This document shows positions 2,058-38,345 of a stretch of 38,345 nt of DNA, piece after piece. The position numbers and the translations under genes were made by a program. Numbering within the stretch: position 1 is the first letter of the stretch; each line of letters starts with the position of its first letter. The notes under the pieces were generated by a model, which saw nothing but the letters and a program-made list of their open reading frames with translations, searched no databases and was not told where the DNA came from. Origin of the DNA: a virus; the IMG/VR virus record IMGVR_UViG_3300042874_000025, positions 1 to 38,345 of that record, one strand, 5' to 3'.

Positions 2058-2984
2058 TCAAATAAGAGTAGCCATGATCCCGTCAACATTGAAGTCGAGG
2101 AGGACTGAGGGATTGTAACCGTTAACGAAATCACGGCTTGCAGGGTTTTTGGCGTCGAATATACCGAAGTCAATATAGTTGTCGCCTACAGGATTATCTT
2201 TACTGTACACCCAGCCAACCATTTGACCTTCAAGCGAACGCGGAATGCCGAGGTCGTCATAGACCTCGTTCAAGAACATATGCCCCTTCGCTTTGAATTT
2301 ATCGTTGCAGTGTGTCTGTACGGTTCGTAAGAAGAACGCGTTGAGGTTGCGATCGGTTCGCCATTCGGTCGAACTTTCATCGAAGAAGCGAGCATAAATA
2401 CTGGGGATCTGTTTGCCAATACTCTCAAGTTTACGGACCTTATTTTTGACCTTCTTACCTTCTTCGTCGGTGGTGGTCTCTGTCTCGATCTTTTCTTCAA
2501 AGCCGAGATGATACATGCGATCCTTTTCTTCGCCGAATTCATCGACAACGCGTTGTCGATAGTTCTTGTAGCCTTCACTCAAGAGGTTATATGCGCTGAC
2601 AAGTACAGCATTGCGGTGGGCCATGATTCCGCGTGAAGCAAGGATACAGGCGGTTGATGCAAGACCTACACTGATAGTGGGTCCGTAGAGTTTGGCGAAT
2701 TTGACTCCACTATTTACGTAGACCTTTACGATATCTTTCTTGCTGTCTTGTTCGGTATAAGCATCGTTATTTTTATCTATAGTAGCCACTTCTATGGAAT
2801 CAAGCTCGACTTGAGCTTCGTTGACGATCCCTTCTACTTTTAAAGCAGCTTTGCTCGCCAATACAATCGTTGCAAGCATTCCGATGAGCCCTGCCCCCAA
2901 CAGGATTTCGGGGGAATATTTCTGTAACTTGAGCCCAGCGCGTGTCATATCGAACCTCAAAAGGCTCATGTTGATTTTTTGCAT
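2058..2984 (-). CDS. DUF6353-like membrane protein, 308 aa
   Basis: The N-terminal half has two hydrophobic segments: about residues 26-46 (PEILLGAGLIGMLATIVLAS) and about 100-120 (PTISVGLASTACILASRGIM). These are followed by HRNAVLVSAYNLLSEGYKNYRQRVVDEFGEEKD. The hydrophobic pair, then an RNA(A/V)L...Y(R/K)xxV...GEEK(D/E) helix, then a beta-rich C-terminal part is the layout of the DUF6353 family of gut-phage proteins. The protein encoded at 5245-6015 has the same architecture, so the two are paralogues. AAGGAG stands seven bases before the ATG. The function of the family is not known to me. Confidence 0.8.
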   Translation of the reverse strand: MQKINMSLLRFDMTRAGLKLQKYSPEILLGAGLIGMLATIVLASKAALKVEGIVNEAQVELDSIEVATIDKNNDAYTEQDSKKDIVKVYVNSGVKFAKLYGPTISVGLASTACILASRGIMAHRNAVLVSAYNLLSEGYKNYRQRVVDEFGEEKDRMYHLGFEEKIETETTTDEEGKKVKNKVRKLESIGKQIPSIYARFFDESSTEWRTDRNLNAFFLRTVQTHCNDKFKAKGHMFLNEVYDDLGIPRSLEGQMVGWVYSKDNPVGDNYIDFGIFDAKNPASRDFVNGYNPSVLLDFNVDGIMATLI

Positions 2985-5244: not shown

Positions 5245-6015
5245 TTATATACGCCCAGGGCCTACTTGATAGTCGACCACGAGACAGGGTTCTTGATCTG
5301 GAGTCAATCTTGAGCTAAATTTGAACTCGAGAAAATATTTCGTGGTCCAACCCAAGTCTTCACCCATAGGGATTGTTTCGAGACCTAGTTCCTCGTATAA
5401 ACAGTTGAGAGACAGATAATCTCTTCGAAGTAAGAGTTGATTGTAATTGAGCTCTATCTTCTTGATAGTATTGATGTTGCTGCTGAAATATCGTCCGGAT
5501 AATTTGTCAAAACACAGAGTATTCCCGTTACCAGTTATAACTATCGAATTGTCTTTGAGCGGATGTTTATCGACAGCATCCTGGGCAATTTCGTCTCGTA
5601 CTTCCTGTTCTTTTTTTTCGCCAATTACTTCCTTGACTTTTTCTCTATATTCTCGAGCGGCAGTCTCTGTCAAAGAGAATAACGCTGCCAGAGCGCTGTT
5701 ACGGCGGATATTTACGCTGTTCGAGCCTACAATACAAGCGATCGTTGCCGCACCCATAATGGCCGAAGGAATATATTCTTTCCATGCAAGTCGAATAACT
5801 TCTGGGACGGTAATAGGTTCGATCGGTGCGCCTTCTTCATTATCCAAATCACGTTCGTGTTCTTCTTGTTTGATGATCTCCACAGCTTTCGGCGTAGCAT
5901 ACACCGCCATGACGACGGTTGTAATCAGCCCAGCCACCCCGAGTGCGGTGAGAATCGTTGGGCTATTTTTTTGCATGATTTTGTTAGCTTGGTGGAATGT
6001 AGCTAATAGATCCAT
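5245..6015 (-). CDS. DUF6353-like membrane protein, 256 aa
   Basis: Two hydrophobic segments: about residues 19-39 (PTILTALGVAGLITTVVMAV) and about 85-103 (PSAIMGAATIACIVGSNSV). After them comes NIRRNSALAALFSLTETAAR leading into EYREKVKEVIGEKKEQ, then a C-terminal part with YFLEFKFSSRLTPDQEPCLV. The order ATPKA, EYIPSA, ARREN-type helix and GEKKEQ...RDEIAQD is what I know as DUF6353, a phage family without assigned function. The 308-aa protein at 2058-2984 is a more divergent relative. The start has AAGGAAAT about ten bases upstream. It is predicted to sit in the host membrane with most of the chain on one side. Confidence 0.85.
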   Translation of the reverse strand: MDLLATFHQANKIMQKNSPTILTALGVAGLITTVVMAVYATPKAVEIIKQEEHERDLDNEEGAPIEPITVPEVIRLAWKEYIPSAIMGAATIACIVGSNSVNIRRNSALAALFSLTETAAREYREKVKEVIGEKKEQEVRDEIAQDAVDKHPLKDNSIVITGNGNTLCFDKLSGRYFSSNINTIKKIELNYNQLLLRRDYLSLNCLYEELGLETIPMGEDLGWTTKYFLEFKFSSRLTPDQEPCLVVDYQVGPGRI

Positions 6016-21279: not shown

Positions 21280-23160
21280 TTATCCTGCGGAAACCTGCTC
21301 GATAACGATCGCGGACTTGGGTTGAATGAGAGCGCCAGAGATGCGAGTCTCCATCAAGTATTTGAATTGGTTGTAATCGATATCGAAATCGTCGAACATC
21401 GAAACCGCGCCACCTTTATCAGCGCCGATCACGTAGTCGCGAGGATTGACGAGAATGGCAATAAGGTTGAGCGTTGCGGCGGAAGGAAGCGTCACATCGC
21501 GGCTCACACCGGTCATCACAGGAACTTCAACGATCTTGGAGACACGAAGTGTCGCCTCGAGATCGGCCTGGGTGTTGTAGATGCGGCGGTTGGTTGTGTC
21601 TTTCACGAGCAACATATCAGTGAGGAAAGAGGTTGTTGTGAACAGGGTTGGCGAACCGAGTCCCTTGTAGAACTCACGGCTTCGAATGATCGCTTCGATG
21701 ATATCTTCGGTGTCACCAACAGCGGCAACTTCGATCCGGTGACTGTACATGACATCATCGCTGTAAATCGGGCGAATATTCGTCTCATTGATTTTGTCTT
21801 CGCTGGCTACATCACGACCATCGCCGATCAATACCGCTCGGGCAATTTCTTCATCGAGCATGATGCGCATTTCTTTCTTCAACCAAACGACAACATCCAG
21901 ATCGGTGATATCAACGATATCGTCACGATCAAGCTTCTGCTTTTTGTAGATGGTAGTCGGTGTGGTAATGCGGCGAAGCAAAGCGAAGACTTCTTCTTTC
22001 TTCAGTGCACCCTTGACATACCCGAGTGCACGGGCTGTTTCAACTGTGATATCGGCGGCCAGGGATTTGATTCGACTGAACGGGCTGTGGCGAGTACCGT
22101 TGATGATACTGTTGACCCAGGTCATGTCGCGCTGAATGAAGGTCGGTTCGTCGGTCAGAGTCTTGGCGTCAGGGAACAGGTAATCGACATTTTCGATACC
22201 ATAGGTCTGAATATGAGCGAGGAAGGCTTCACGCATGGAGCCAGATTGCTGCGCGTAGGAGAGGATCTCACCAAATTGCGCGTGAGTCAAGTGTGTGTCA
22301 GGTGCCTTTTCCTCAGTTTTATCGAAAACGTTCTTATGCATATTTTCTTCTCCTTTATTTGAGTTGATACTTGATTGTGAGATTTCATCGGAGGATGAAC
22401 CCATGGCGTCTGAAGCCATGCCGATAATAGCGTACAGGACATTCTTCTCTTTTTCTGAGAAACTGTCAAAGACTTCGTTCACAGTTTCGCCAGAACCTTC
22501 GTGGAAAATGGAATCGTCAGAGTCGTCTGATTGAGCAACATCGTCGTCTTCATCACCTACGTTGAGAGCCTGAGCAATCATAGCGTAAGCGACCTGTTTC
22601 TTCTTGTCGCTCATTGAGTCGAAAATATCTTTGATGGTTTCTGACTCTTCACTGGAATCTTCATGCTTCACGAATGATTGTTCGATGCGTGAATCTGTGA
22701 ATATGATGGCTTCATCGTCGAGATCGTCAGTTGATCCATCAGCATGCGCAATGGCTAAATAATCGATCTTAGCTCCAGGATTTGCACCGGAAAGGACCAG
22801 ACTGGCTTCGCGGATCATACCGTGCTGAACCATCTTCGATTTCTCCACCAGTTTATTGGCGTAGATCGAAATGGAGTCGATATCGCCATGTGCAACTGAT
22901 TCTTTAACAGCTCGACCACCGTCGGTGTCGTTGAACCAGCCGTACAAGTATACCCCATTTTGACGGTTTTCCAGGAGCCCGTGTCCAAGAATATTCATCG
23001 GATCACTATGGACATGTTGCCACACAAGTGGGACTATTTGTCCGTCGTTATGTTTGAACGCATCTCTCATGATCGTACGATCATCTGTACACTTTACTCC
23101 GTAGACAGTAGCGTATCCACTAAAATCACAAGTGCTTTTATCTTTGGTAAGTTTTGTCAT
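21280..23160 (-). CDS. Prohead protease fused to HK97-type major capsid protein
   Basis: 626 aa. Residues 1 to about 140 are an HK97-type serine protease of prohead maturation. H49 lies in LVWQHV, and S120 in REASLVLSGANPGA, the usual His and Ser positions. Residues about 173-255 hold two copies of a short acidic module (ETIKDIFDSMSDKKKQVAYA; ETVNEVFDSFSEKEKNVLYA), probably scaffold-like. From M274 (MHKNVFDKTEE...) the chain is an HK97-fold capsid protein, with KGALKKEEVFALLRRITTPT, VVWLKKEMRIMLDEEIARAV and LIGDGRD. An internal AAAGGAG with ATG at 22341 would make the 353-aa capsid protein on its own. The gene overlaps the portal gene by four bases. Confidence 0.9.
   Translation of the reverse strand: MTKLTKDKSTCDFSGYATVYGVKCTDDRTIMRDAFKHNDGQIVPLVWQHVHSDPMNILGHGLLENRQNGVYLYGWFNDTDGGRAVKESVAHGDIDSISIYANKLVEKSKMVQHGMIREASLVLSGANPGAKIDYLAIAHADGSTDDLDDEAIIFTDSRIEQSFVKHEDSSEESETIKDIFDSMSDKKKQVAYAMIAQALNVGDEDDDVAQSDDSDDSIFHEGSGETVNEVFDSFSEKEKNVLYAIIGMASDAMGSSSDEISQSSINSNKGEENMHKNVFDKTEEKAPDTHLTHAQFGEILSYAQQSGSMREAFLAHIQTYGIENVDYLFPDAKTLTDEPTFIQRDMTWVNSIINGTRHSPFSRIKSLAADITVETARALGYVKGALKKEEVFALLRRITTPTTIYKKQKLDRDDIVDITDLDVVVWLKKEMRIMLDEEIARAVLIGDGRDVASEDKINETNIRPIYSDDVMYSHRIEVAAVGDTEDIIEAIIRSREFYKGLGSPTLFTTTSFLTDMLLVKDTTNRRIYNTQADLEATLRVSKIVEVPVMTGVSRDVTLPSAATLNLIAILVNPRDYVIGADKGGAVSMFDDFDIDYNQFKYLMETRISGALIQPKSAIVIEQVSAG
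22339..22356 (-). promoter_or_regulatory. Internal ribosome binding site for the capsid protein
   Basis: Within the protease-capsid frame, AAAGGAG (22356-22350) stands eight bases before an in-frame ATG (22341-22339), at the boundary between the acidic linker and the capsid domain. This site decides an internal start. Capsid protein would be made in excess over the fused protease, as virions need hundreds of capsid but few protease copies. Confidence 0.7.
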
Positions 23161-24422: not shown

Positions 24423-26168
24423 TTATTCAAAGTCTTCTTTATGGTTTTTGTGGGCAATATAGGCATCCATCATAGCAGATACACTGTCGATTTTGTCTGC
24501 GTAGCGCTTTTTTAGAAGCTTCCGATTACCGTTAGTATCTTCGATCGTAACACAATTACCCATGGCAAACGACATTAAATCCTCGTCAAATATGAGCATT
24601 CGTTCTTCGGATAAAGTCTTTAATTCGCCTAATGGTACAGATTCGGTTTTGGCTCCCTGAATAACCTTTTCGACAGCATGTTCTCCGTTCTCTCTTGTCC
24701 ATCGCTCGACAAATTCACGAGCATTGTATGGATCGAAGCCTAAAGCTCTAACGTCATACGACGAAGATCTTATGAAAGAGTCCAGGTCATCGTAGACTTC
24801 CATCATATCAAGAACTGTACACTCAAGAACTTGAAGGCTTCCCTCAGCTAGAAACTGTTCATACTTAATTCTCATGGCTGTGGGCAGTTTAGAAAGAGTT
24901 AGAGAGGAAATATAGCACCTAGTCTTAACTCCGAACTTCCCTCTCTGAAGAGGGAACAGAAAAGTGAATGCGCAGAAATCATCACCTTGAGAAAGATCAG
25001 CCCCAAGAGCACACGGTAAAGACCAAAAGTCTCGCTTTAGGTGTGGAAGAGTTTCTTCGTAAGTGAAGAAATATGTGTAGCCTTCCATCGGTATACCAAA
25101 TCTCTTGGCTAGAATATCGTTGCGAGAAGCAGGCGCTGATTCGGCTCTTTCCACCTCAAGTTGATAAGTCTCATAAGAGACTGTCTTTCCTATGTTGGGG
25201 TTAGCTTTAAGCCACATCGCTGGATCAGAAACTTCTTTGACATCATCAAGTTTATAGTAGAAAATTGAAACGTGTGGATTGATGTAATCGCCCTTAAGAA
25301 TGTCAAGTAACTCCATTTTTATTGTGTCGCCGGAACTATTACGGACTGTTCCTTCCGAACTCATGGCAACAATCAGGTAGTCATTCAACTTGGACGCACC
25401 TTGTTCTAAAGCACCGATCACGTCTTCTCTTATATCCCCAGAGAGCCATTCGTCTACAGTTGAAATCTTCGGGCGTAAACCTTGAAGTTTATTGATAGAC
25501 ATAGGTCTGATCTCCAGAAGAGATCCGGTCAAAAAATTCTCTATGCCTTTCTTAGTGGAAGCTAGCTTCTGCCGATTAGCTTTTGACCCAGTAGTGTTCT
25601 GTAAAGACCCCTCCGTTAGGAATTGAAACAAGGGACCTCTGGATCTTACAACGGATGTTCTTATAGGGGAAAGAATTTCTTCCGCTTGCTTCATGGTGGG
25701 AGCACTTGTGATTTGATGGGTTGTTTCGGTATCAACGTTTAGAAAGAAATTTTGTATCGCTGATCCGTACATAGATTTAGCCGCACCTCTTGCAACGATC
25801 AAATATTGCTTGTTGATCAATCGCTTCTTAATCTTTCGCCGAACATACCTCCCACCATGACCATCTGGACTTGGTTCGTAAACACTTCTAGTAACGAAGT
25901 AGTACCACGCAAAAATCTGCTCAGCCCATAACTTAAAGCTGTCTAACAGATGAAGATCTGATCCATCAGTAAGAGTTAGCTCGTTTTCGCAGTATAGAAT
26001 GAATCCCTCTACGGCATCCTGATCATAATATATTTCAGGATTATCTACGAGGGCATCTATACGATTCATTTCTAGAGATATTTCTCTGCAAACGGGTATG
26101 TCACCTCTTAGAACCTTGTCTCTAAATTCCCCGTAATATATAGGGGTGGCAGTGTTTGACAGAGGCAT
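24423..26168 (-). CDS. Terminase large subunit
   Basis: 581 aa, the packaging motor and nuclease. The Walker A-like motif is ARGAAKS at about 126-132 (YLIVARGAAKSMYGSA), with Walker B around STVDEWLSG. RGAAKS followed by the motif SAPTMKQAEEILSPIR is typical of HK97/phiC31-type terminases. The C-terminal RNase H-like nuclease has GADLSQGDDFCAFTF, then LGFDPYNAREFVERW and KIDSVSAMMDAYIAHK, which supply the metal-binding Asp residues. It is preceded by a weak AAAGGCGG site and lies two bases from the preceding gene, so it is probably translationally coupled. Confidence 0.95.
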   Translation of the reverse strand: MPLSNTATPIYYGEFRDKVLRGDIPVCREISLEMNRIDALVDNPEIYYDQDAVEGFILYCENELTLTDGSDLHLLDSFKLWAEQIFAWYYFVTRSVYEPSPDGHGGRYVRRKIKKRLINKQYLIVARGAAKSMYGSAIQNFFLNVDTETTHQITSAPTMKQAEEILSPIRTSVVRSRGPLFQFLTEGSLQNTTGSKANRQKLASTKKGIENFLTGSLLEIRPMSINKLQGLRPKISTVDEWLSGDIREDVIGALEQGASKLNDYLIVAMSSEGTVRNSSGDTIKMELLDILKGDYINPHVSIFYYKLDDVKEVSDPAMWLKANPNIGKTVSYETYQLEVERAESAPASRNDILAKRFGIPMEGYTYFFTYEETLPHLKRDFWSLPCALGADLSQGDDFCAFTFLFPLQRGKFGVKTRCYISSLTLSKLPTAMRIKYEQFLAEGSLQVLECTVLDMMEVYDDLDSFIRSSSYDVRALGFDPYNAREFVERWTRENGEHAVEKVIQGAKTESVPLGELKTLSEERMLIFDEDLMSFAMGNCVTIEDTNGNRKLLKKRYADKIDSVSAMMDAYIAHKNHKEDFE

Positions 26169-27997: not shown

Positions 27998-28403
27998 TCG
28001 TATCTCCTGGTTCCCTTGGTTTTGAAAGTCGAATTAGATTGGACTCATCCCCATAATGTATAGCCAGATGTGTAGATCCACTGACACAGATAAGATATTC
28101 TGGATCCAAGATCCTACGAATATTATTCTCAATATCATTTAGAGTTAAAGGGTTCATATGATGTACTGTTATAACCCCTCCGATCTCAAAACCTTCAATC
28201 CCTAAGTCACGTCCGTTATCCCTAACTATAACTTGACGACGAGCGAGACGCCATTCGGTAGATCTATAAAATTCCTGGTTAAAAACTCGATCATAACCAA
28301 AAGTAGATCTACCAACAGAACCTGTGATTCTTAGAAATTGGTACCTCTCCTCGAAAGTAGCTAGAAGCTTAAGATCTGAATACCTTCTAATTATCTGCTT
28401 CAT
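27987..28403 (-). CDS. HNH endonuclease-like protein
   Basis: 138 aa. EWRLARRQVIVRDNGRDLGI leads to GGVITVHHMNPLTLNDIENN and SGSTHLAIHYGDES. The central VHHMNP, with a second H in THLAIHYG, is the HNH core. Genes of this family beside the small terminase are common; HNH proteins near terminases take part in DNA cutting during packaging in several phages (as with HK97 gp74). It overlaps the small terminase gene by 17 bases. Confidence 0.8.
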   Translation of the reverse strand: MKQIIRRYSDLKLLATFEERYQFLRITGSVGRSTFGYDRVFNQEFYRSTEWRLARRQVIVRDNGRDLGIEGFEIGGVITVHHMNPLTLNDIENNIRRILDPEYLICVSGSTHLAIHYGDESNLIRLSKPREPGDTNLW

Positions 28404-28812
28404 CTTGCACTCTGATCTTAATCTTGCCGTTTCCGCTGTATGCTTTCATCGCGTCGATTGCGTTCTGAACTAGGACTTTAGTGTCTTTCGCAGTTTCAAG
28501 GGATTCTGTCTTGGCTCTTAAAAGGGCGTTCTCTTGTACGAGCTTCTCTTTCTCAAGCTTTTCTTTAGTCGAGCCTATTTTTAAGAAGTGAGTCATGACT
28601 TGCGAAGACGCAGTACCAGCCTTTATCTGTCTGGCGGCCAGATCGATCGTCATACTAATTAGTTGGTTCTCTCTTGCCTCGACAGTTCTTCCTGGTCTTG
28701 GGGTGGGCTTAACTTTAGGTTCTTCATATTCGTCGTCAATGTTCCCAGGAAGAATTCGTTTACGTTTTATGATAGTCTGTGATCTCTTCGGAGACTTCTT
28801 GGGGACAGCCAT
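28387..28812 (-). CDS. Terminase small subunit-like protein
   Basis: 141 aa from the ATG at 28812 (MAVPKKSPKRSQTIIKRKRI), with GGAGGTGAT upstream, one of the best ribosome binding sites in the window. The basic N-terminus is followed by ARENQLISMTIDLAARQIKA, then GTASSQVMTHFLKIGSTKEK and a coiled-coil (LEKEKLVQENALLRAKTESL). This (GTASSQVxTHFLKxG, then coiled coil) is a pattern of small-terminase proteins in gut siphophages. The subunit recognises the packaging site, possibly in the adjacent non-coding region. Confidence 0.8.
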   Translation of the reverse strand: MAVPKKSPKRSQTIIKRKRILPGNIDDEYEEPKVKPTPRPGRTVEARENQLISMTIDLAARQIKAGTASSQVMTHFLKIGSTKEKLEKEKLVQENALLRAKTESLETAKDTKVLVQNAIDAMKAYSGNGKIKIRVQDEADN

Positions 28813-28857
28813 AACAATCACCTCCAGTTCTTAAGATTTATATTCTAGTTTTGGAAT

Positions 28858-29011
28858 AGATAGAGTAGACTTTTGACTTAAACTCCAAGAATTCACACAC
28901 ACTTTATACTAGCTTACGCCGACATTGTGTATTCTTGAAAGGAGAAACCCGTTCACCCGCAGGTTTTTTGTTGTGAGTCCTTGAAGTCTAAGTTAAAAGT
29001 CTACTCTATCT
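28858..29011. repeat. 38-bp imperfect inverted repeat
   Basis: 28859-28896 and 28973-29010 are reverse complements at 33 of 38 positions, starting GATAGAGTAGACTTTT at the outer end, with 76 bases between. All five differences are transitions. In minus-strand RNA three of them would be G-U pairs, leaving two mismatches, which is consistent with selection for an RNA structure as well as a DNA site. Confidence 0.8.
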
Positions 29012-29047
29012 CTACCCCCGGGGCTTTTTTTATGAGCCACGCGATTG

Positions 29048-29083
29048 ATAGAGGGGGTATATATCGCGACACCCCCCCTCTAT
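29048..29083 (-). other. Strong hairpin after the 105-aa gene
   Basis: ATAGAGGGGG (29048-29057) pairs perfectly with CCCCCTCTAT (29074-29083). The loop contains the palindrome TCGCGA. It follows the stop codon of the 105-aa gene at once but has no U-tract, so it may stabilise the transcript end or mark a protein-binding site, not terminate on its own. Confidence 0.6.
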
Positions 29084-29084
29084 G

Positions 29085-29402
29085 TCATCGGTCTTGGGCT
29101 GTTGTTCTATCTCTAAAAGATTCTCTTGTAACTTTAATATAAAGGCCTGTGACATTCAAATCTAATATTTCATCTACTGCATACGAAATAGCTAACGACT
29201 CATCCGCACTGCTTAGTTCATCTGATGATTTTGCAATTCGTGCAATGTAACCACATGTATAGTAGCCTTTAGATACATCAAAAGTATACCATTCGTCATA
29301 CTGTGTGAAAGGATTAAAAGGATTGTCCAATGTGGTTAGCATAAACTCTTCTGGTGCTTTAGCTATAGAGCTTGATTGTACTTTAATTACTTCTTTAAGC
29401 AT
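29085..29402 (-). CDS. Conserved phage protein of unknown function, 105 aa
   Basis: MLTTLDNPFNPFTQYDEWYT, then FDVSKGYYTCGYIARIAKSS, DELSSADESLAISYAVDEIL and NVTGLYIKVTRE. The pattern TSLDNPxxPFTQxDxWxxFDxxxGYxTCxYLARIAxxSxELSxxD is common in phages of Bacillota next to the large HTH/DFDGD protein, but no role is known to me. AAAAGGAGG precedes the ATG. It is the last gene of the early block, 12 bases after the RNA-polymerase-like gene, and may be its partner. Confidence 0.8.
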   Translation of the reverse strand: MLKEVIKVQSSSIAKAPEEFMLTTLDNPFNPFTQYDEWYTFDVSKGYYTCGYIARIAKSSDELSSADESLAISYAVDEILDLNVTGLYIKVTRESFRDRTTAQDR

Positions 29403-29414
29403 AGATTCCTCCTT

Positions 29415-32129
29415 TTACAAAGCTCTTTCTAACGTAGACACAGATACACCTAAAGCACTAGCTATCTCTGCTGCTGTGTAACCTAAAGAACGCATTCCTT
29501 GTGCCCTTAAAATTCTTGCAGGAGACATGCCTTTTGTTGTTCTAGGCATGGCTCTTTCTTTTAATAGGTCAATGTCAGTATTCAATAGTATCTGGCCAAG
29601 AGTGTCTTTATGGATTGCGCCAAGTTGAATGGCTTCCCATTCTCGATCAGTAATCAGTATTTTTTTCTTACCGGCACCCATTCTAGCACGGGCCTCCTCT
29701 AGGGCTTGTCCTTTTAACTTCTTAATCTCGGACTTCTCTAAATCGAGGTGGGCCTCTTTCTTAGCTTGATATATCATGTCTGCTAGTAACTGAGCTTGTC
29801 TTTCTAAAGGCTTATTCATATATGCTACTTTTAACTTAGCCTTAAGAACACTTACCTCATGGGCGTATGTCTTGTTTGCAGAGGGGGAGTATTCTATATC
29901 TCCTGTTTTAAGATAGACAAGTCTTGCTTTATTAGCCAACTGTTTTAAAGCATTGGCATGTTCGGCATAGACAGCTTCTTTCGTAGTGCCAGAAGATAAA
30001 TTATAAGCATCTGATTCTTTTTCCATCTTGGTTAGCTTAGTCGTTCTTTTTATTGTTTTACCAAGTTCTCCATCTTTCCCTTTTACGACAAAGCTTTCGT
30101 TGCTATCAACCATAATTCTTTTACCGGTTACAGGATCTGTTCGATGCGTATATTGTTTCTTACCTGTTATGTTATTGACAGTATATTCTTCAACTTGATG
30201 GGGTATTCGAGTTTCAGATTTAGCTCTAGATATAAGAGTAGACGCGCCGCCTGTTACTTTGTTTTGGTATTTGGCTTTTAATTCGCCAATACTATGATCA
30301 GTGTAGGACTTCTTATAATCAAGGTGGTGTTTCTCGGCATCAATGACAACCATTGAATGTTTTACAGCTCTTGCTATTTCGCTCTCGGTAGCACCCTTTA
30401 TAGTCATATCAGTAATGAGATTTGAAATATCCCCCATCTTTAACTGCTTACCTTTTGGAGATAAACCTTCTATCTTGGAATCAAGAGGATATGACTTTTT
30501 AGGATTGAAATTTTGAAGATCTTTCAAAGGAGCTGATGAACGAATCAATTTTTCTTTATTAGGAATAACAATAACTGTGTCACCATCAAAATCAGCCCCA
30601 GACAATCTTTCCGCAACTTTGGGGTGAATACCTATAGCATCTCTTGCGTCTTTAATTAAATTGTTTGCTTGAGGATTCTTATTATTCACAGTTAATTCGG
30701 GAATTTCGAATATGCCCCCGTGAGGGTGCCTTATAAGAACCACTCTATCTCCGTTATTGTATTTAGGAGCGTAGACTTCGTTCTCTTTGATAGATGTTAT
30801 TGGTAATATGATGTGGGTGTCTTGTCTTGGAAGAGCAGCAGCTTTTAAATGAATGGCGGCAGAATCTGATTCATCAGCAAAGGTCTCTAGCAATCTTTTC
30901 TTAAGTGTTGGGTTTGTTAGAGAATTGATCTCGTCGAACTCTTCTTTTTTAAGTTCAAACGCAAGCTTTAGTTGCTTCTTAGCAAGTGAGTCTGATTGTT
31001 TCGAAAGAACTTGAGACGAGATATTCTTAGACCAAACAACCCAATCACCCTCTTCATTGACGATGTTCAATACGCCTTTCTGTCCTCCCGGTTTGATTGC
31101 GGATCCGAAAGGATTGTGGGTGTCTATGGTACCATCTTTATTTTTCTCCATAGGTTTAAATACTTCGTCCGGTTTTGGTCCGCCAGGAACACGAACTGCT
31201 GTTCGAGGGATATCTTTTGTCTTACTTGTGTTATACACAATATCAACGCCTTTAGGGAAAGCATCGTCTGTGTACATGGCCATTCCTTTTAGATAATGGG
31301 TTCCATCAACACCTATTCTTACTTGTGCGTATTTGGAATTACCTAAAGAGGTATCGGCGACACCACGTCTAAGCTCTATTACCCCGTCTTTTAACGAACC
31401 ACCGTCTTCGTGATATCGAATAGCTACACGCTTGCCATCGACATTAACAACGGGCATAACAGGTATCACATAACCATTAATATCAAATCTTTGATCTACC
31501 ATTCTTATTTTATACTTTGCACCTTTTTGGTAGATTTCTGTATGAGGTGTGTCCGGTCCGGTAAGAACCATTAAAGATGTCTTCTTCCCAGTTCCGGCTT
31601 GAACTTGGCTGAGGTATTGAACTTTATACCCTTCTTCTTTCAAAAGGGCTACAGCCTGTTTAAGTTTATGTCGGTTCAGACCCATATGGATTTCTGTGCC
31701 AACGCCAACATCGATATATTTGTGTTCTTTAACTGCATTCCTAAGCACTCCAGCTACATTATTAGTAACCATTGCTCGCTCATGTTTTTCGTCATCGAGC
31801 CACTCTCTAATTGTTGATTCGTTGTATCCACCCATACGTTTACCAATCTCAACATGAGAATATCCTTTAGTTTTGAGCCTAAGGGCCTGTCTACGATTAT
31901 CTTCACGAAGTTCAGTTTTAATCATAGATTTTCTTGCCCTCAGTTCGGTGGTTTTTATACCTAAACCTTTAGCTATTTCTAGCTCGCTCATGCCTTCGTC
32001 TTCTAGGTTTTTAACATAACCTAGAAACGATTTGCCTCTTTGTTGAGGATCTTTCCCGGACCCCCAAGGATATCGGCCACTATGGCGTTTAGTGCCTTCG
32101 TGACTTAACTCGTCAATAGTTATTGTCAT
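29415..32129 (-). CDS. RNA-polymerase-like protein with DFDGD motif and HTH segments, 904 aa
   Basis: LSGADFDGDTVIVIPN (about 510-524) reproduces the metal-binding NADFDGD motif of the beta' subunit of cellular RNA polymerases (D513, D515, D517). About 45 residues before it, VVLIRHPHGGIFEIPELTV resembles the beta' stretch [20 protein letters not shown], and IHPKVAERL lies between, as in beta'. Earlier, YLKGMAMYTDDAFPKGVDIV and YNTSKTKDIPRT (280-310) resemble NKGVxS...PVDIVLNPxGVPSR of beta, so both double-psi barrels may be present in one chain, as in YonO-type phage polymerases. Helix-turn-helix-like segments occur at about 43-66, 82-110 and 874-903. The N-terminus has a GRYPWGSG tag. GGAGG precedes the ATG. 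Confidence 0.8.
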   Translation of the reverse strand: MTITIDELSHEGTKRHSGRYPWGSGKDPQQRGKSFLGYVKNLEDEGMSELEIAKGLGIKTTELRARKSMIKTELREDNRRQALRLKTKGYSHVEIGKRMGGYNESTIREWLDDEKHERAMVTNNVAGVLRNAVKEHKYIDVGVGTEIHMGLNRHKLKQAVALLKEEGYKVQYLSQVQAGTGKKTSLMVLTGPDTPHTEIYQKGAKYKIRMVDQRFDINGYVIPVMPVVNVDGKRVAIRYHEDGGSLKDGVIELRRGVADTSLGNSKYAQVRIGVDGTHYLKGMAMYTDDAFPKGVDIVYNTSKTKDIPRTAVRVPGGPKPDEVFKPMEKNKDGTIDTHNPFGSAIKPGGQKGVLNIVNEEGDWVVWSKNISSQVLSKQSDSLAKKQLKLAFELKKEEFDEINSLTNPTLKKRLLETFADESDSAAIHLKAAALPRQDTHIILPITSIKENEVYAPKYNNGDRVVLIRHPHGGIFEIPELTVNNKNPQANNLIKDARDAIGIHPKVAERLSGADFDGDTVIVIPNKEKLIRSSAPLKDLQNFNPKKSYPLDSKIEGLSPKGKQLKMGDISNLITDMTIKGATESEIARAVKHSMVVIDAEKHHLDYKKSYTDHSIGELKAKYQNKVTGGASTLISRAKSETRIPHQVEEYTVNNITGKKQYTHRTDPVTGKRIMVDSNESFVVKGKDGELGKTIKRTTKLTKMEKESDAYNLSSGTTKEAVYAEHANALKQLANKARLVYLKTGDIEYSPSANKTYAHEVSVLKAKLKVAYMNKPLERQAQLLADMIYQAKKEAHLDLEKSEIKKLKGQALEEARARMGAGKKKILITDREWEAIQLGAIHKDTLGQILLNTDIDLLKERAMPRTTKGMSPARILRAQGMRSLGYTAAEIASALGVSVSTLERAL

Positions 32130-32130
32130 A

Positions 32131-32691
32131 TCAGTCCTCCAAAGAGTTTTTAATTATCTCAATTCTTTTGTCGAAAGACACTATTTTTTTCATAATCTTG
32201 AGAATATCAGAAGGATCCGGTGTATGCACTACTATTTCGTTATTCTGGTATAATCTTAATTCAACGTTAATCTTTTTCGGATCTTCTTTATATTCCAAGC
32301 AAAAGAGCGCCACATAGATCTCTAATTGATACATCGCAACGGGAGATACCCCAGTCTTCAGATCATGAACTCGAAGTACATTATTCCTAAAAGATATAGT
32401 ATCAGCTGTACCAAAGGCATTGTAGGAATGGAATAAAAGCACTTCAGGTTTCATACGAAACCCTATTGCATCGTTTACGTACGAATTTAATGTGATATTA
32501 CTTTTGGGTAACTTCTGTCCTAATTTTATACACTGACATGCGAAAGCGTGGAGAACAGTTCCTCTTTGGGCTGCCATATGAGTAAGATATGCCCTATCAA
32601 GTTTGTCTTCATCATAATTAACCCAATGATATTTAGATGCGCTTAGAAAGGCATGTTGGCCTTCTAGTTCGGAATGAGAGTTGAAGTTCAT
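32131..32691 (-). CDS. PD-(D/E)XK nuclease, Cas4/RecB-like
   Basis: 186 aa. The start MNFNSHSELEGQHAFLSASK, then HMAAQRGTVLHAFACQCIKL (with the early H of RecB-type nucleases: RGTVLHAF), leads to YNAFGTADTISFRNNVLRVH and DLKTG. GTADxxxxxxxxLxxxDLKTG is the D...(D/E)xK active-site pattern, with YQLEIYVALF the following Q-x-x-x-Y motif. Such nucleases process DNA ends in replication and recombination. No Cys cluster is seen, unlike Cas4. It overlaps the VRR-NUC gene by 59 bases, and its stop lies inside the ribosome binding site of the next gene. Confidence 0.85.
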   Translation of the reverse strand: MNFNSHSELEGQHAFLSASKYHWVNYDEDKLDRAYLTHMAAQRGTVLHAFACQCIKLGQKLPKSNITLNSYVNDAIGFRMKPEVLLFHSYNAFGTADTISFRNNVLRVHDLKTGVSPVAMYQLEIYVALFCLEYKEDPKKINVELRLYQNNEIVVHTPDPSDILKIMKKIVSFDKRIEIIKNSLED

Positions 32692-34962: not shown

Positions 34963-37900
34963 TTAATTATTTGAGGTGAACCACTCGAAGTCACCATATT
35001 GTGCTATTTTTTCTACTGCTGCGTCTACGAGTTTGACGTAATAGCTTTGATCGATATCTTCCTGTTTATTAAGGGAAGCGACAACTTCAGATTCCATCCA
35101 ACGATAACCCTTGGTTCCAACAGCAGCGTGGTAAGATCCGTCTTTTTCTCTAACCAGGAGCCCACCCCCCGTTCCTGGCTTCATCGGGCAGAAGAGCCCA
35201 GCCTTTCCTACGAAGTGGATATTGTGATTTGATTCGTCACTTTCATTAAAATCAAGATGTAAGGCTGTTGTTACCTGTTTAGTCTCGCACATATCCTTGA
35301 ATGCTATTGATTCACCACTAAACAAAGTCTTGAAGACATAAGGTTGTGCGAACTGTGCTCCAGTGGCGGTCCATTCTCCCTCTGTAGTTTTAGCAATATA
35401 GACAGAATCGTTGACGAGACAGAGTTTGGCGTATGTCTCTTCGTGTTCAAACGTGTAGCCATATTTAGCCCCGAATTCGAATACAAACTTTATAATCTCA
35501 GGTGTTGCATCTGGGATCTTAATAGAGTCTGTTTTGATATGAACAACGGTAAATCCTTTGGCCTGCACGGCTAGAAGAAGGTCTATCATAAACAAGGCTC
35601 CGCGCTTAGCCACAATATTATCAGTATTTCGAAGATCTCTGAATTTACTATCATACTGAGCAGCAGTAAATCCATAGACACTGACGATGATAGTCTTTAG
35701 AGCTGCAGATAACGATTTTGCTGAATCCTTGGACCCTAAATATTTCTTAAGGGCGCCATTCATTAAACTACCTGCTGCTTCAAAGTCTTTGTGTTTGATA
35801 GCTATACGCGCGCTTTTTAACTCGCTGAATCTCTTGGTATATACTGATCCAAACAGGTTTAGACATTCGATACTTGTGGGATGCATGGAAGCCACATCAA
35901 GCAATACGACATTTTTATACATCCCAGGTTCGGAATATACGAACCCTCCCTCTCCTGCTTCGAGTCCTTTATAAGTACTTACACCTCCTTCGAATTTGTA
36001 GCCTTGGAACATCTCGCCTAGATCGGTATAGATGAAATTATCCTGAGGATTTTGGTCTTGACCAAATAAGATTCTTGTAGTATGCATCTGAGTAGTAGCG
36101 TTGACAGGTAGCCCACTAAGTTCGGCTAGAATTTGTCTGGCTACAAAGTCTTCTTTACGGTCGTTGAATGTTGCCTCAAGAGAGGTCACGTCATTTGCAC
36201 AATAGTCTGCCGCCTTAACCCACAAATCTTCTGGAACAGGTTGATCCCAAGGGAGGCCTAATTCTTGGTGATGGATACCTAGTTGTATCTGGAATATCTT
36301 AAGTCCTTGTTTTACAGACGAGAAGTCCAAAACATCAGCATAGGAAATATCGTATGCTTCTCTGAACATTCCGTTCCGTGATTTATTGATTATCTTCTGA
36401 CTTAATTGATACAGTTGTTCGTTATCATAACCAAGGTACCTGGCATAGAGGATATGATTATCATATCTCCGACAATTGAACCCGACAAGTTTCATTTCGA
36501 ACAAGGTTTCCATGTCTTGCGCTGTTGGGTTGATCATACGGACGCATTCATGTTCTTCCCCCTGGAATTTCCAAACTACAATAAATAGATTAGGAAATAC
36601 CTCGGTATCATAGAACACTATTGAGTCATTCTTGTAGGCTTCTGATACTTGCTGGATATTATCAAGCTCTTCAGATTTAAACTTCATCTTCCCAACAGTC
36701 TTTACACAATGCTCCGATTGATTAGTACTATTCATCGCGAACGATAAGATCTTCGGACGCATCTCTGTCAAATCATATCTTAGATCTGACTCATGCGCAT
36801 CATCGAGAATCTTCTTAATGAAATCAACACTCGGTGCTGTCGCGGGATGGATCTCTTTGTGTAAATTTCTTAGAATGAGATCTCTAAGCCCTCGCTCGCT
36901 CTTTACAGAGTCTGCATTTATCATCTTTACTCCTTTCAAGGGTAAGCCGCTATTTAATCTAGCGATGGGTATATTGTTACATTTAGTCAACTTTCTTCTG
37001 AGCGAGGAGTCCCCATTAAAAACCTTCACCTCAATGCCTTGGCTAAATATTCGACTTAAAGTGGACGTATCTCCTTCATAAATGTAATGGAGATGTATAG
37101 CTTTACCACTTTTACTTAACTCGGCATAGGTTGCGGGCCACTTAGAGGCAGCCTCGATATTTTCCTCCAATGACTTTTGTCCGCCCTCACTTGTAAGATC
37201 GAAATCTATCACTATATGATTCTCTGGTACTTTAACATAATGAAGAAGTGTCGTATCTAAAGAAGAAAGAGTGGTTGTGGTGTTGTTCCATTTTCTCCCA
37301 GGCAGGTCATCATTGTTTGCGTATTGAGCCAGGCAACCTGAATATAGATCATCGATGATCGATTTTGCGGAATCCATAACTAGAGAACTTGGAGGAACTT
37401 CTTGTTCTTCTACTGCGGCAGCTACAAACTTAGACTCAAGAAACCCTGAATATATACTGCGAACTTGCTTTCCCTCAATTCTCTCCACATCCGAAAATTT
37501 CTCGAAATAGTTCTTCAGTTCTTCACGAAACTTATGTTTTGGCAATTTGAATTCGATGAGCGACTCGTCGCAGTAGGTTTTATAAATGTCATACCCCTGT
37601 GTTAGAGTGGTACTATTCTGTTGCTTGAACAGGTAGAAATTTGCTTCGACGAAATTAAAGAACACGTCTGTCTGTAACATCATATCCAAAGGTCTATATA
37701 GTGAATAGTAGTTCTTCCCCATTCTCCTATAAACTTTAAGACAGTGGAAAGCAATAGCGCCCAGCTCAAAATCTATCTGCCCCATAAGGGATTGGTATCT
37801 TCTAGTAGGGACTTTATTTCCAGAAGGGCGCACATCGATAAGGCGACGGAGAAGACCTGATTTCCCGTCTGTTATGCGAACAGGTTTATTAGTAGCCATG

Positions 37901-38345
37901 AACAAGAAAGCATTAACCCTTGACATGTAACTAGGTTTATATTTCTCATTCATCGTCATCTGCTCGTGAGACACTATCGAGTTTAATCTTGTATTATCTT
38001 CGATCCTTGATAGATCCCCGTCGTGTTGGATGGCGACAAGAGGATTGTCCTTAAACGACTCAGTAGAGAAGGAGTTGTTTGACGAAGTCAAAGCTTTAGC
38101 CTCGAATGTCGTGTAATACCCAATAAATAATCTCTGTATGATGTCAAGCATGGTTGATTTACCAGTGCCTGCTGCACCATACATGACAACAAATTTTTGA
38201 ATGGTCTTAGCGTCTCCAGCAATAATAGCACCTATTGCCCATTCAAGTTTAGCTCGTTCCTCCTTCTCGTAAAGGGTACTTACGATTTCCTCGTAAGCTT
38301 CGATGTTGCCTTTCTCTAAAGGATATGGAAGCTTCTTACTTACGT
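34963..38345 (-). CDS. SF3 helicase / AEP primase-like / family B DNA polymerase (continues from left end)
   Basis: Residue numbers are for the joined 1250-aa protein. SF3 (D5-like) helicase: Walker A GAAGTGKS (180-187), Walker B area LVAIQHDGD (about 226), sensor LFMATNK with N276, arginine finger area LLRRLIDVRP. An AEP-type primase-like domain follows: IVIDFDL (D504, D506), SKSGKAIHLHY (H541, H543) and IEVKVF with E562. Then family B polymerase: exonuclease motifs FYDTEVFPN (D703, E705), GFNCRRYD (N747, D752) and YCANDVT (D842); polymerase motif A LLDVASMHP (D940), motif B KTIIVSVYGFT (K1007, Y1014) and motif C HIKTDSIK (D1063). One chain would thus unwind, possibly prime, copy and proofread DNA. 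The stop is TAA; the 5' end lies at 374. Confidence 0.9.
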   Translation of the reverse strand, partial: VSKKLPYPLEKGNIEAYEEIVSTLYEKEERAKLEWAIGAIIAGDAKTIQKFVVMYGAAGTGKSTMLDIIQRLFIGYYTTFEAKALTSSNNSFSTESFKDNPLVAIQHDGDLSRIEDNTRLNSIVSHEQMTMNEKYKPSYMSRVNAFLFMATNKPVRITDGKSGLLRRLIDVRPSGNKVPTRRYQSLMGQIDFELGAIAFHCLKVYRRMGKNYYSLYRPLDMMLQTDVFFNFVEANFYLFKQQNSTTLTQGYDIYKTYCDESLIEFKLPKHKFREELKNYFEKFSDVERIEGKQVRSIYSGFLESKFVAAAVEEQEVPPSSLVMDSAKSIIDDLYSGCLAQYANNDDLPGRKWNNTTTTLSSLDTTLLHYVKVPENHIVIDFDLTSEGGQKSLEENIEAASKWPATYAELSKSGKAIHLHYIYEGDTSTLSRIFSQGIEVKVFNGDSSLRRKLTKCNNIPIARLNSGLPLKGVKMINADSVKSERGLRDLILRNLHKEIHPATAPSVDFIKKILDDAHESDLRYDLTEMRPKILSFAMNSTNQSEHCVKTVGKMKFKSEELDNIQQVSEAYKNDSIVFYDTEVFPNLFIVVWKFQGEEHECVRMINPTAQDMETLFEMKLVGFNCRRYDNHILYARYLGYDNEQLYQLSQKIINKSRNGMFREAYDISYADVLDFSSVKQGLKIFQIQLGIHHQELGLPWDQPVPEDLWVKAADYCANDVTSLEATFNDRKEDFVARQILAELSGLPVNATTQMHTTRILFGQDQNPQDNFIYTDLGEMFQGYKFEGGVSTYKGLEAGEGGFVYSEPGMYKNVVLLDVASMHPTSIECLNLFGSVYTKRFSELKSARIAIKHKDFEAAGSLMNGALKKYLGSKDSAKSLSAALKTIIVSVYGFTAAQYDSKFRDLRNTDNIVAKRGALFMIDLLLAVQAKGFTVVHIKTDSIKIPDATPEIIKFVFEFGAKYGYTFEHEETYAKLCLVNDSVYIAKTTEGEWTATGAQFAQPYVFKTLFSGESIAFKDMCETKQVTTALHLDFNESDESNHNIHFVGKAGLFCPMKPGTGGGLLVREKDGSYHAAVGTKGYRWMESEVVASLNKQEDIDQSYYVKLVDAAVEKIAQYGDFEWFTSNN

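Follow-up and report, generated by a model that had tools for sequence, protein, structure and literature searches.

Gene order around the polymerase gene

The window, by which is meant the whole 38,345-nucleotide stretch that was analysed (IMG/VR record IMGVR_UViG_3300042874_000025), has all its main genes on the (-) strand, and its replication part reads, in order, DNA polymerase/primase, single-strand annealing protein, helicase, VRR-Nuc, Cas4-like exonuclease and then the gene considered here, whose product is predicted to be a single-chain two-barrel RNA polymerase. Downstream of it on the same strand come g105, a gap, g144, HNH, a connector protein, terminase, portal, a protease-capsid fusion and tail genes. 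The initial annotation took the 38-kb record for a whole phage genome, which it is not: its end cuts through the DNA polymerase/primase gene. The features of this region are as follows.

34963-38184, (-): DNA polymerase with a primase-like N-terminal region, cut by the contig end
32633..32953, (-): VRR-Nuc-type endonuclease (phrog_93), a conserved upstream neighbour
32131..32691, (-): Cas4/RecB-like exonuclease (phrog_3953), a conserved upstream neighbour, in 173/177 loci
29415..32129, (-): predicted single-chain two-barrel RNA polymerase, 904 aa, ATG start, assigned from PHROG 4291 and the predicted fold
29085..29402, (-): g105 (phrog_4303), small ORF directly downstream of the polymerase, beside it in 172/177 loci
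29035..29047, (-): cos-like site (TATCAATCGCGTGGCT / CATAAA, coding strand), placed from the Mudcat termini and the left end of the nearest relative's contig
28387..28821, (-): g144 (phrog_4259), first gene of the late/packaging operon
24423..26168, (-): terminase large subunit, in the late operon

Is this order peculiar to the window? It is not, the block VRR-Nuc, Cas4, polymerase, g105, cos, g144, HNH and terminase being near-invariable in 177 loci, with the cos-like site forming the junction of the replication and late modules. The genome ends of phage Mudcat have a 9-base 3′ overhang (PMC5513430). Just before the cos site lies an inverted repeat of a G-run and a C-run, AUAGAGGGGGGG...CCCCCUCUAU (window 29047-29084, (-) strand), and many relatives have similar G-runs and C-runs at the same place. 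The product of g105 is a possible partner of the polymerase; a sigma- or omega-like partner was looked for in it and discarded, since it is well predicted (pLDDT 90), yet has no PDB fold match. Farther along, the head maturation protease and major capsid protein are apparently fused in one ORF of 626 aa (window 21280-23160, (-) strand), and the same fusion has been reported in Arthrobacter cluster AM phages (PMC5513430). The phrog_2152 family is present in two copies downstream of the tail genes (window 2058-2984 and 5245-6015, (-) strand).

The protein and its parts

The ORF at 29415..32129 is a genuine coding sequence, and its product can be divided, from the N-terminus, into the following parts.

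32037..32102, (-): N-terminal tail, residues 10-31, HxGTxRxSGRYPWGSGxxPxQ, of low model confidence and strong conservation
31962..32027, (-): N-terminal helix-turn-helix (HTH)-like segment 1, residues 35-56, with model helices 35-44 and 49-56
31791..31910, (-): N-terminal HTH segment 2, residues 74-113, Pfam HTH_23 at 35.2 bits (cut-off 24.6)
31053..31427, (-): beta-like barrel, residues 235-359, six strands, with K281 and K303, from model strands and conservation
31287..31289, (-): codon of K281 (LKGMAMY), a candidate catalytic Lys, invariant in 135 sequences
31221..31223, (-): codon of K303 (NTSK), a candidate catalytic Lys, invariant in 135 sequences
30561..30821, (-): beta′-like catalytic barrel, residues 437-523, six strands, from the model and profile comparisons
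30579..30593, (-): DFDGD metal-binding motif, residues 513-517, invariant
30312..30437, (-): MGDISNLITDM...HSMVVIDAEKHHLDYK, residues 565-606, the first part of which aligns with YonO
29421..29522, (-): C-terminal HTH, residues 870-903, sigma-70 region 4-like (Sigma70_r4_2 at 27.8 bits, cut-off 25.7)

The string LSGADFDGDTV, residues 509-519 and preceded by VVLIRHPHGGIFEIPELTV, had initially been read as belonging to a beta′ barrel, and YLKGMAMYTDD...FPKGVDIV, upstream of it in the same ORF, as belonging to a beta barrel. Both are present, the former in the putative barrel at 437-523, with LKGMAMY of the latter in the six-stranded segment at 235-359. The three HTH-like segments that had been noticed at the two ends are likewise borne out, by the helices at 35-44 and 49-56, by the HTH_23 match at 74-113 and by the sigma-70 region 4 match at 870-903, where the model has helices at 870-881, 886-893 and 897-903. 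HTH_23 is present in all 49 family members scanned and the sigma-70 region 4 model is matched by 47 of them.

The SGRYPWGSG tail is, in deposited phages, essentially confined to the polymerase family. Two related prophages (L099 at 12402 and L105 at 12936, (+) strand) encode a further protein whose N-terminal tail motif, HHGVLGQRWGVRRYQN, bears a loose resemblance to the polymerase tail HxGTxRxSGRYPWGSG.

A widespread family and its labels

Against PHROG 4291 the window protein scores 1125.5 bits (E 0) over residues 2-903, and a tblastn search brings up 250 deposited phage records with relatives, at about 36-52% identity; in 249 the match spans 80% of the query or more. Further relatives are encoded in at least 513 IMG/VR stretches (two scans) and in at least 130 GTDB genome stretches (one scan). 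The carriers are hundreds of phages of Gram-positive bacteria, among them phages of Arthrobacter, Gordonia, Streptomyces, Lactococcus and gut bacteria. Arthrobacter phage Mudcat gp94, and the PHROG 4291 members of Streptomyces phage DrGrey and Lactococcus phage P078, belong to the same family as the window protein over their full length and share its gene order; apart from the degree of identity just given, there is no essential difference from them.

In deposited records the family goes by ‘helix-turn-helix DNA-binding domain protein’, by ‘RNA-dependent RNA polymerase’ or as hypothetical, and most commonly the gene is filed as that of a plain DNA-binding protein. That a small siphophage should have such a gene was at first considered unusual, which is right only in part: the phages and prophages that have it number in the hundreds, and the RNA-dependent RNA polymerase label is already to be met in PHROGs and in several RefSeq phage records. 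Single-chain two-barrel polymerases as such are also familiar, from YonO, the crAss-like phage polymerases, the P23-45 enzymes and QDE-1 (PMC10770324, PMC7824862). Two points seem to be new: behind the ‘HTH DNA-binding protein’ label of these phages there stands a protein with HTHs on either side of an apparently intact two-barrel active site, and its gene has a fixed place at the junction of cos and the late operon. No experimental study of the family was found in the literature outside the supplementary two-barrel survey of PMC10770324, which may list it.

Predicted fold and active-site conservation

Double-psi barrels require six strands each. The AlphaFold2 model, made on the family alignment (mean pLDDT 89.1, pTM 0.82), has six strands at 235-359 and six at 437-523, just where the two double-psi beta-barrels were expected. 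Foldseek against the PDB gives as top match QDE-1 (7y7p, E 9.6e-10), along the length of the protein, followed among others by maize RDR2 (E 5.7e-7) and phage P74-26 gp62 (E 1.3e-6), while cellular beta′/RPB1 subunits match weakly (E near 0.01). The structure prediction that had been proposed as a check on the motifs thus places two six-stranded beta segments correctly and leads to two-barrel RNA polymerases, though with TM-scores of about 0.3 and large rmsd the agreement is local only, the positions of the domains being different. Among the PDB fold matches listed, crAss-like phi14:2 gp66 is absent.

D513, F514, D515, G516, D517, K281, K303, R467, P469 and H470 are identical in all 135 aligned members (which, the window protein apart, are less than 80% identical to one another), a count that is biased, many of the loci having been retrieved with patterns that include GADFDGD or KGMAM. 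D-F-D-G-D is kept, though, in all 15 loci retrieved by patterns without it, and in all eight of the tblastn-found deposited phages that were checked; the three Asp, whose loss from close homologues would have told against a polymerase, are retained wherever they were looked for. The PHROG 4291 match, the hundreds of relatives and the invariant residues together put the motifs far beyond chance.

Sequence searches are less telling than the fold. Pfam RdRP matches residues 504-600 of the window protein at 18.3 bits, below its gathering cut-off of 23.8, and matches 28 of 49 family members at E <= 0.01 (best E 1.3e-4); neither the RNA polymerase beta nor the beta′ model of Pfam matches the window protein. 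With a single chain and weak fold matches to the cellular subunits, it is not a multisubunit RNA polymerase with separate subunits. Searched singly against PDB sequences the window protein brings up HTH matches only, and the family profile mostly HTH and designed proteins; with the core profile the top PDB sequence is that of the P23-45 virion polymerase, matched at its catalytic loop, and the E of 0.46 is not significant alone.

Relation to YonO and other two-barrel polymerases

YonO transcribes the late genes of SPbeta. Like it, the window protein is a single chain and has, upstream, a conserved KG pair followed by another conserved Lys, and like yonO its gene lies just upstream of the packaging genes (the terminase-portal operon). 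Compared family against family, with an alignment of 26 YonO members, R-x-P-H, D-x-D-G-D and G-x-x-S-N-x-I-T fall in register (pairwise E 0.0038-0.011); the register is seen in that way only, the window protein giving no useful alignment with YonO by itself. The hhalign probability is 3.9-8.7% and the likeness extends over only some 120 columns at the active site, so that there is no significant similarity to YonO beyond the catalytic motifs. Elsewhere the two have almost no sequence similarity, and the HTH segments set the PHROG 4291 family apart: it ends in an HTH, whereas the YonO family consensus ends in conserved Cys residues.

QDE-1 and the eukaryotic RNA-silencing polymerases (PF05183) share with the window protein the best fold match and the weak Pfam match already described; unlike them it is below the Pfam gathering score, phage-encoded and furnished with HTHs at both ends. 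In phages P23-45 and P74-26, gp64 and gp62 are non-virion polymerases and gp96 is the virion polymerase. Here the likeness is to gp62 in fold and to the catalytic loop of gp96 in the core-profile search, but gp96 is fused to a tape measure protein, and these polymerases have no close sequence relation to the window protein.

What does the polymerase do?

To judge from the invariant residues together with the known activity of YonO, the window protein very probably works as a template-dependent RNA polymerase. Its active site would lie between the beta′-like barrel, with D513, D515 and D517 for Mg2+ and with R467, and the beta-like barrel, with K281 and K303. The terminal HTHs, of which the last is sigma-70 region 4-like, would probably find or hold a promoter in place of a sigma factor; no promoter motif common to all relatives was found. 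The most likely target would be the operon of packaging and structural genes whose start lies just downstream of the polymerase gene. Taken as a whole, the reading of a DNA-dependent single-chain enzyme that transcribes the late operon of its own phage is reasonably probable, its late-gene part being drawn from two things, gene order and the analogy with YonO.

The upstream neighbours are replication and recombination genes, and so a role there is possible. The enzyme might provide primers or other RNA alongside the DNA polymerase/primase, single-strand annealing protein, helicase, VRR-Nuc and Cas4-like nuclease, its gene being the last large one of the replication module and tightly linked to those of VRR-Nuc and Cas4. 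This is unlikely, since the phage already has a gene for a DNA polymerase with a primase-like region, the HTH segments suggest sequence-specific binding, and the phage two-barrel enzymes whose role is known are transcription enzymes (PMC5467207, PMC10770324). Several of the latter are virion enzymes (PMC10770324), and packaging of the window protein and its injection for early genes, in the manner of crAss-like phi14:2 or P23-45 gp96, would give a use to the conserved disordered SGRYPWGSG tail, as a targeting signal. That use as a general virion signal was rejected, the tail not being seen in other proteins of these phages; with the motif not seen in their structural proteins, and the gene among replication rather than structural genes, a virion polymerase is distinctly improbable.

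The sequence does not tell whether the template is DNA or RNA, and there are RNA-dependent enzymes among the nearest solved structures, those of QDE-1 and RDR2. Action on RNA of the phage or the host, in line with the label in PHROGs and RefSeq, could draw on those folds, on the Pfam RdRP matches and on a structured hairpin RNA that adjoins the gene in many of these phages (see the section below). The label is based on homology only, YonO is strictly DNA-dependent (PMC5467207), QDE-1 structures contain DNA as well as RNA templates and several relatives have no hairpin, and an RNA template is accordingly given a very low probability. Though HTH segments at both ends would suit a former polymerase turned DNA-binding transcription factor, which the ‘HTH DNA-binding protein’ label implies and which the initial annotation had entertained beside a phage making its own transcripts, putative catalytic Asp, Lys and Arg invariant in 135 diverse members are unexpected for a dead enzyme, and this reading is highly improbable, the other being much the better supported.

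If the DNA-dependent late-gene polymerase is indeed active, it would rank among the commoner single-chain kin of cellular RNA polymerase, one to which DNA-recognition domains have been fused. The way in which the carrier phages run their late genes would then be accounted for, the misleading ‘HTH DNA-binding protein’ label would be put right, and promoter finding by a two-barrel polymerase without sigma could be studied in a compact enzyme. Carriers among the Lactococcus and Arthrobacter phages are in culture, and the question is thus directly testable.

A hairpin at the head of the late operon

Between cos and g144, in the gap mentioned above, the late operon of the window starts with a long hairpin, which has counterparts in related loci.

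28858..29011, (-): long hairpin with arms of about 32 bp and a loop of about 90 nt containing UCUCCUUUC, at the head of the late operon, RNA folding z-score -8.35
Related locus L105, 11095-11235: hairpin
Related locus L114, 11078-11225: hairpin
Related locus L268, about 26-165: hairpin

The conserved UCUCCUUUC of the loop is anti-Shine-Dalgarno-like. The best inverted repeat between cos and g144 scores at least 13 in 56 of 83 loci, the maximum in 415 shuffles being 12. Across 24 relatives, 26 pairs of a 27-bp stem show compensatory changes, with 95.7% of cells paired as against 33-47% when the stem is slid, and with a covariation of 0.76 as against 0.36 in shuffles. G-U cells number 80 and A-C cells 12, a bias that indicates an RNA with the same orientation as the late genes. 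A covariance model finds the hairpin at that one place in most Firmicutes-type loci, with a few weak extra matches, and the relatives' model does not reach the window's own hairpin. As a known RNA it was sought in Rfam, with no match, and as a universal promoter of the polymerase it is ruled out by its absence from Streptomyces phages Bilo and DrGrey and from several IMG/VR relatives.

The hairpin may be a site for RNase III, an element of translational control or a leader for antitermination. A joint reading, tentative and rather doubtful, would have a widespread clade of sigma-free polymerases, with promoter-recognition HTHs built in at both ends, effecting the late switch across cos, the late transcript in many of the phages beginning with the covarying hairpin and its loop exposed. 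A leader hairpin that exposes such a loop could control late expression. In the nearest relative of the window the sequence of the loop is almost unchanged, while that of the stem differs and still pairs.
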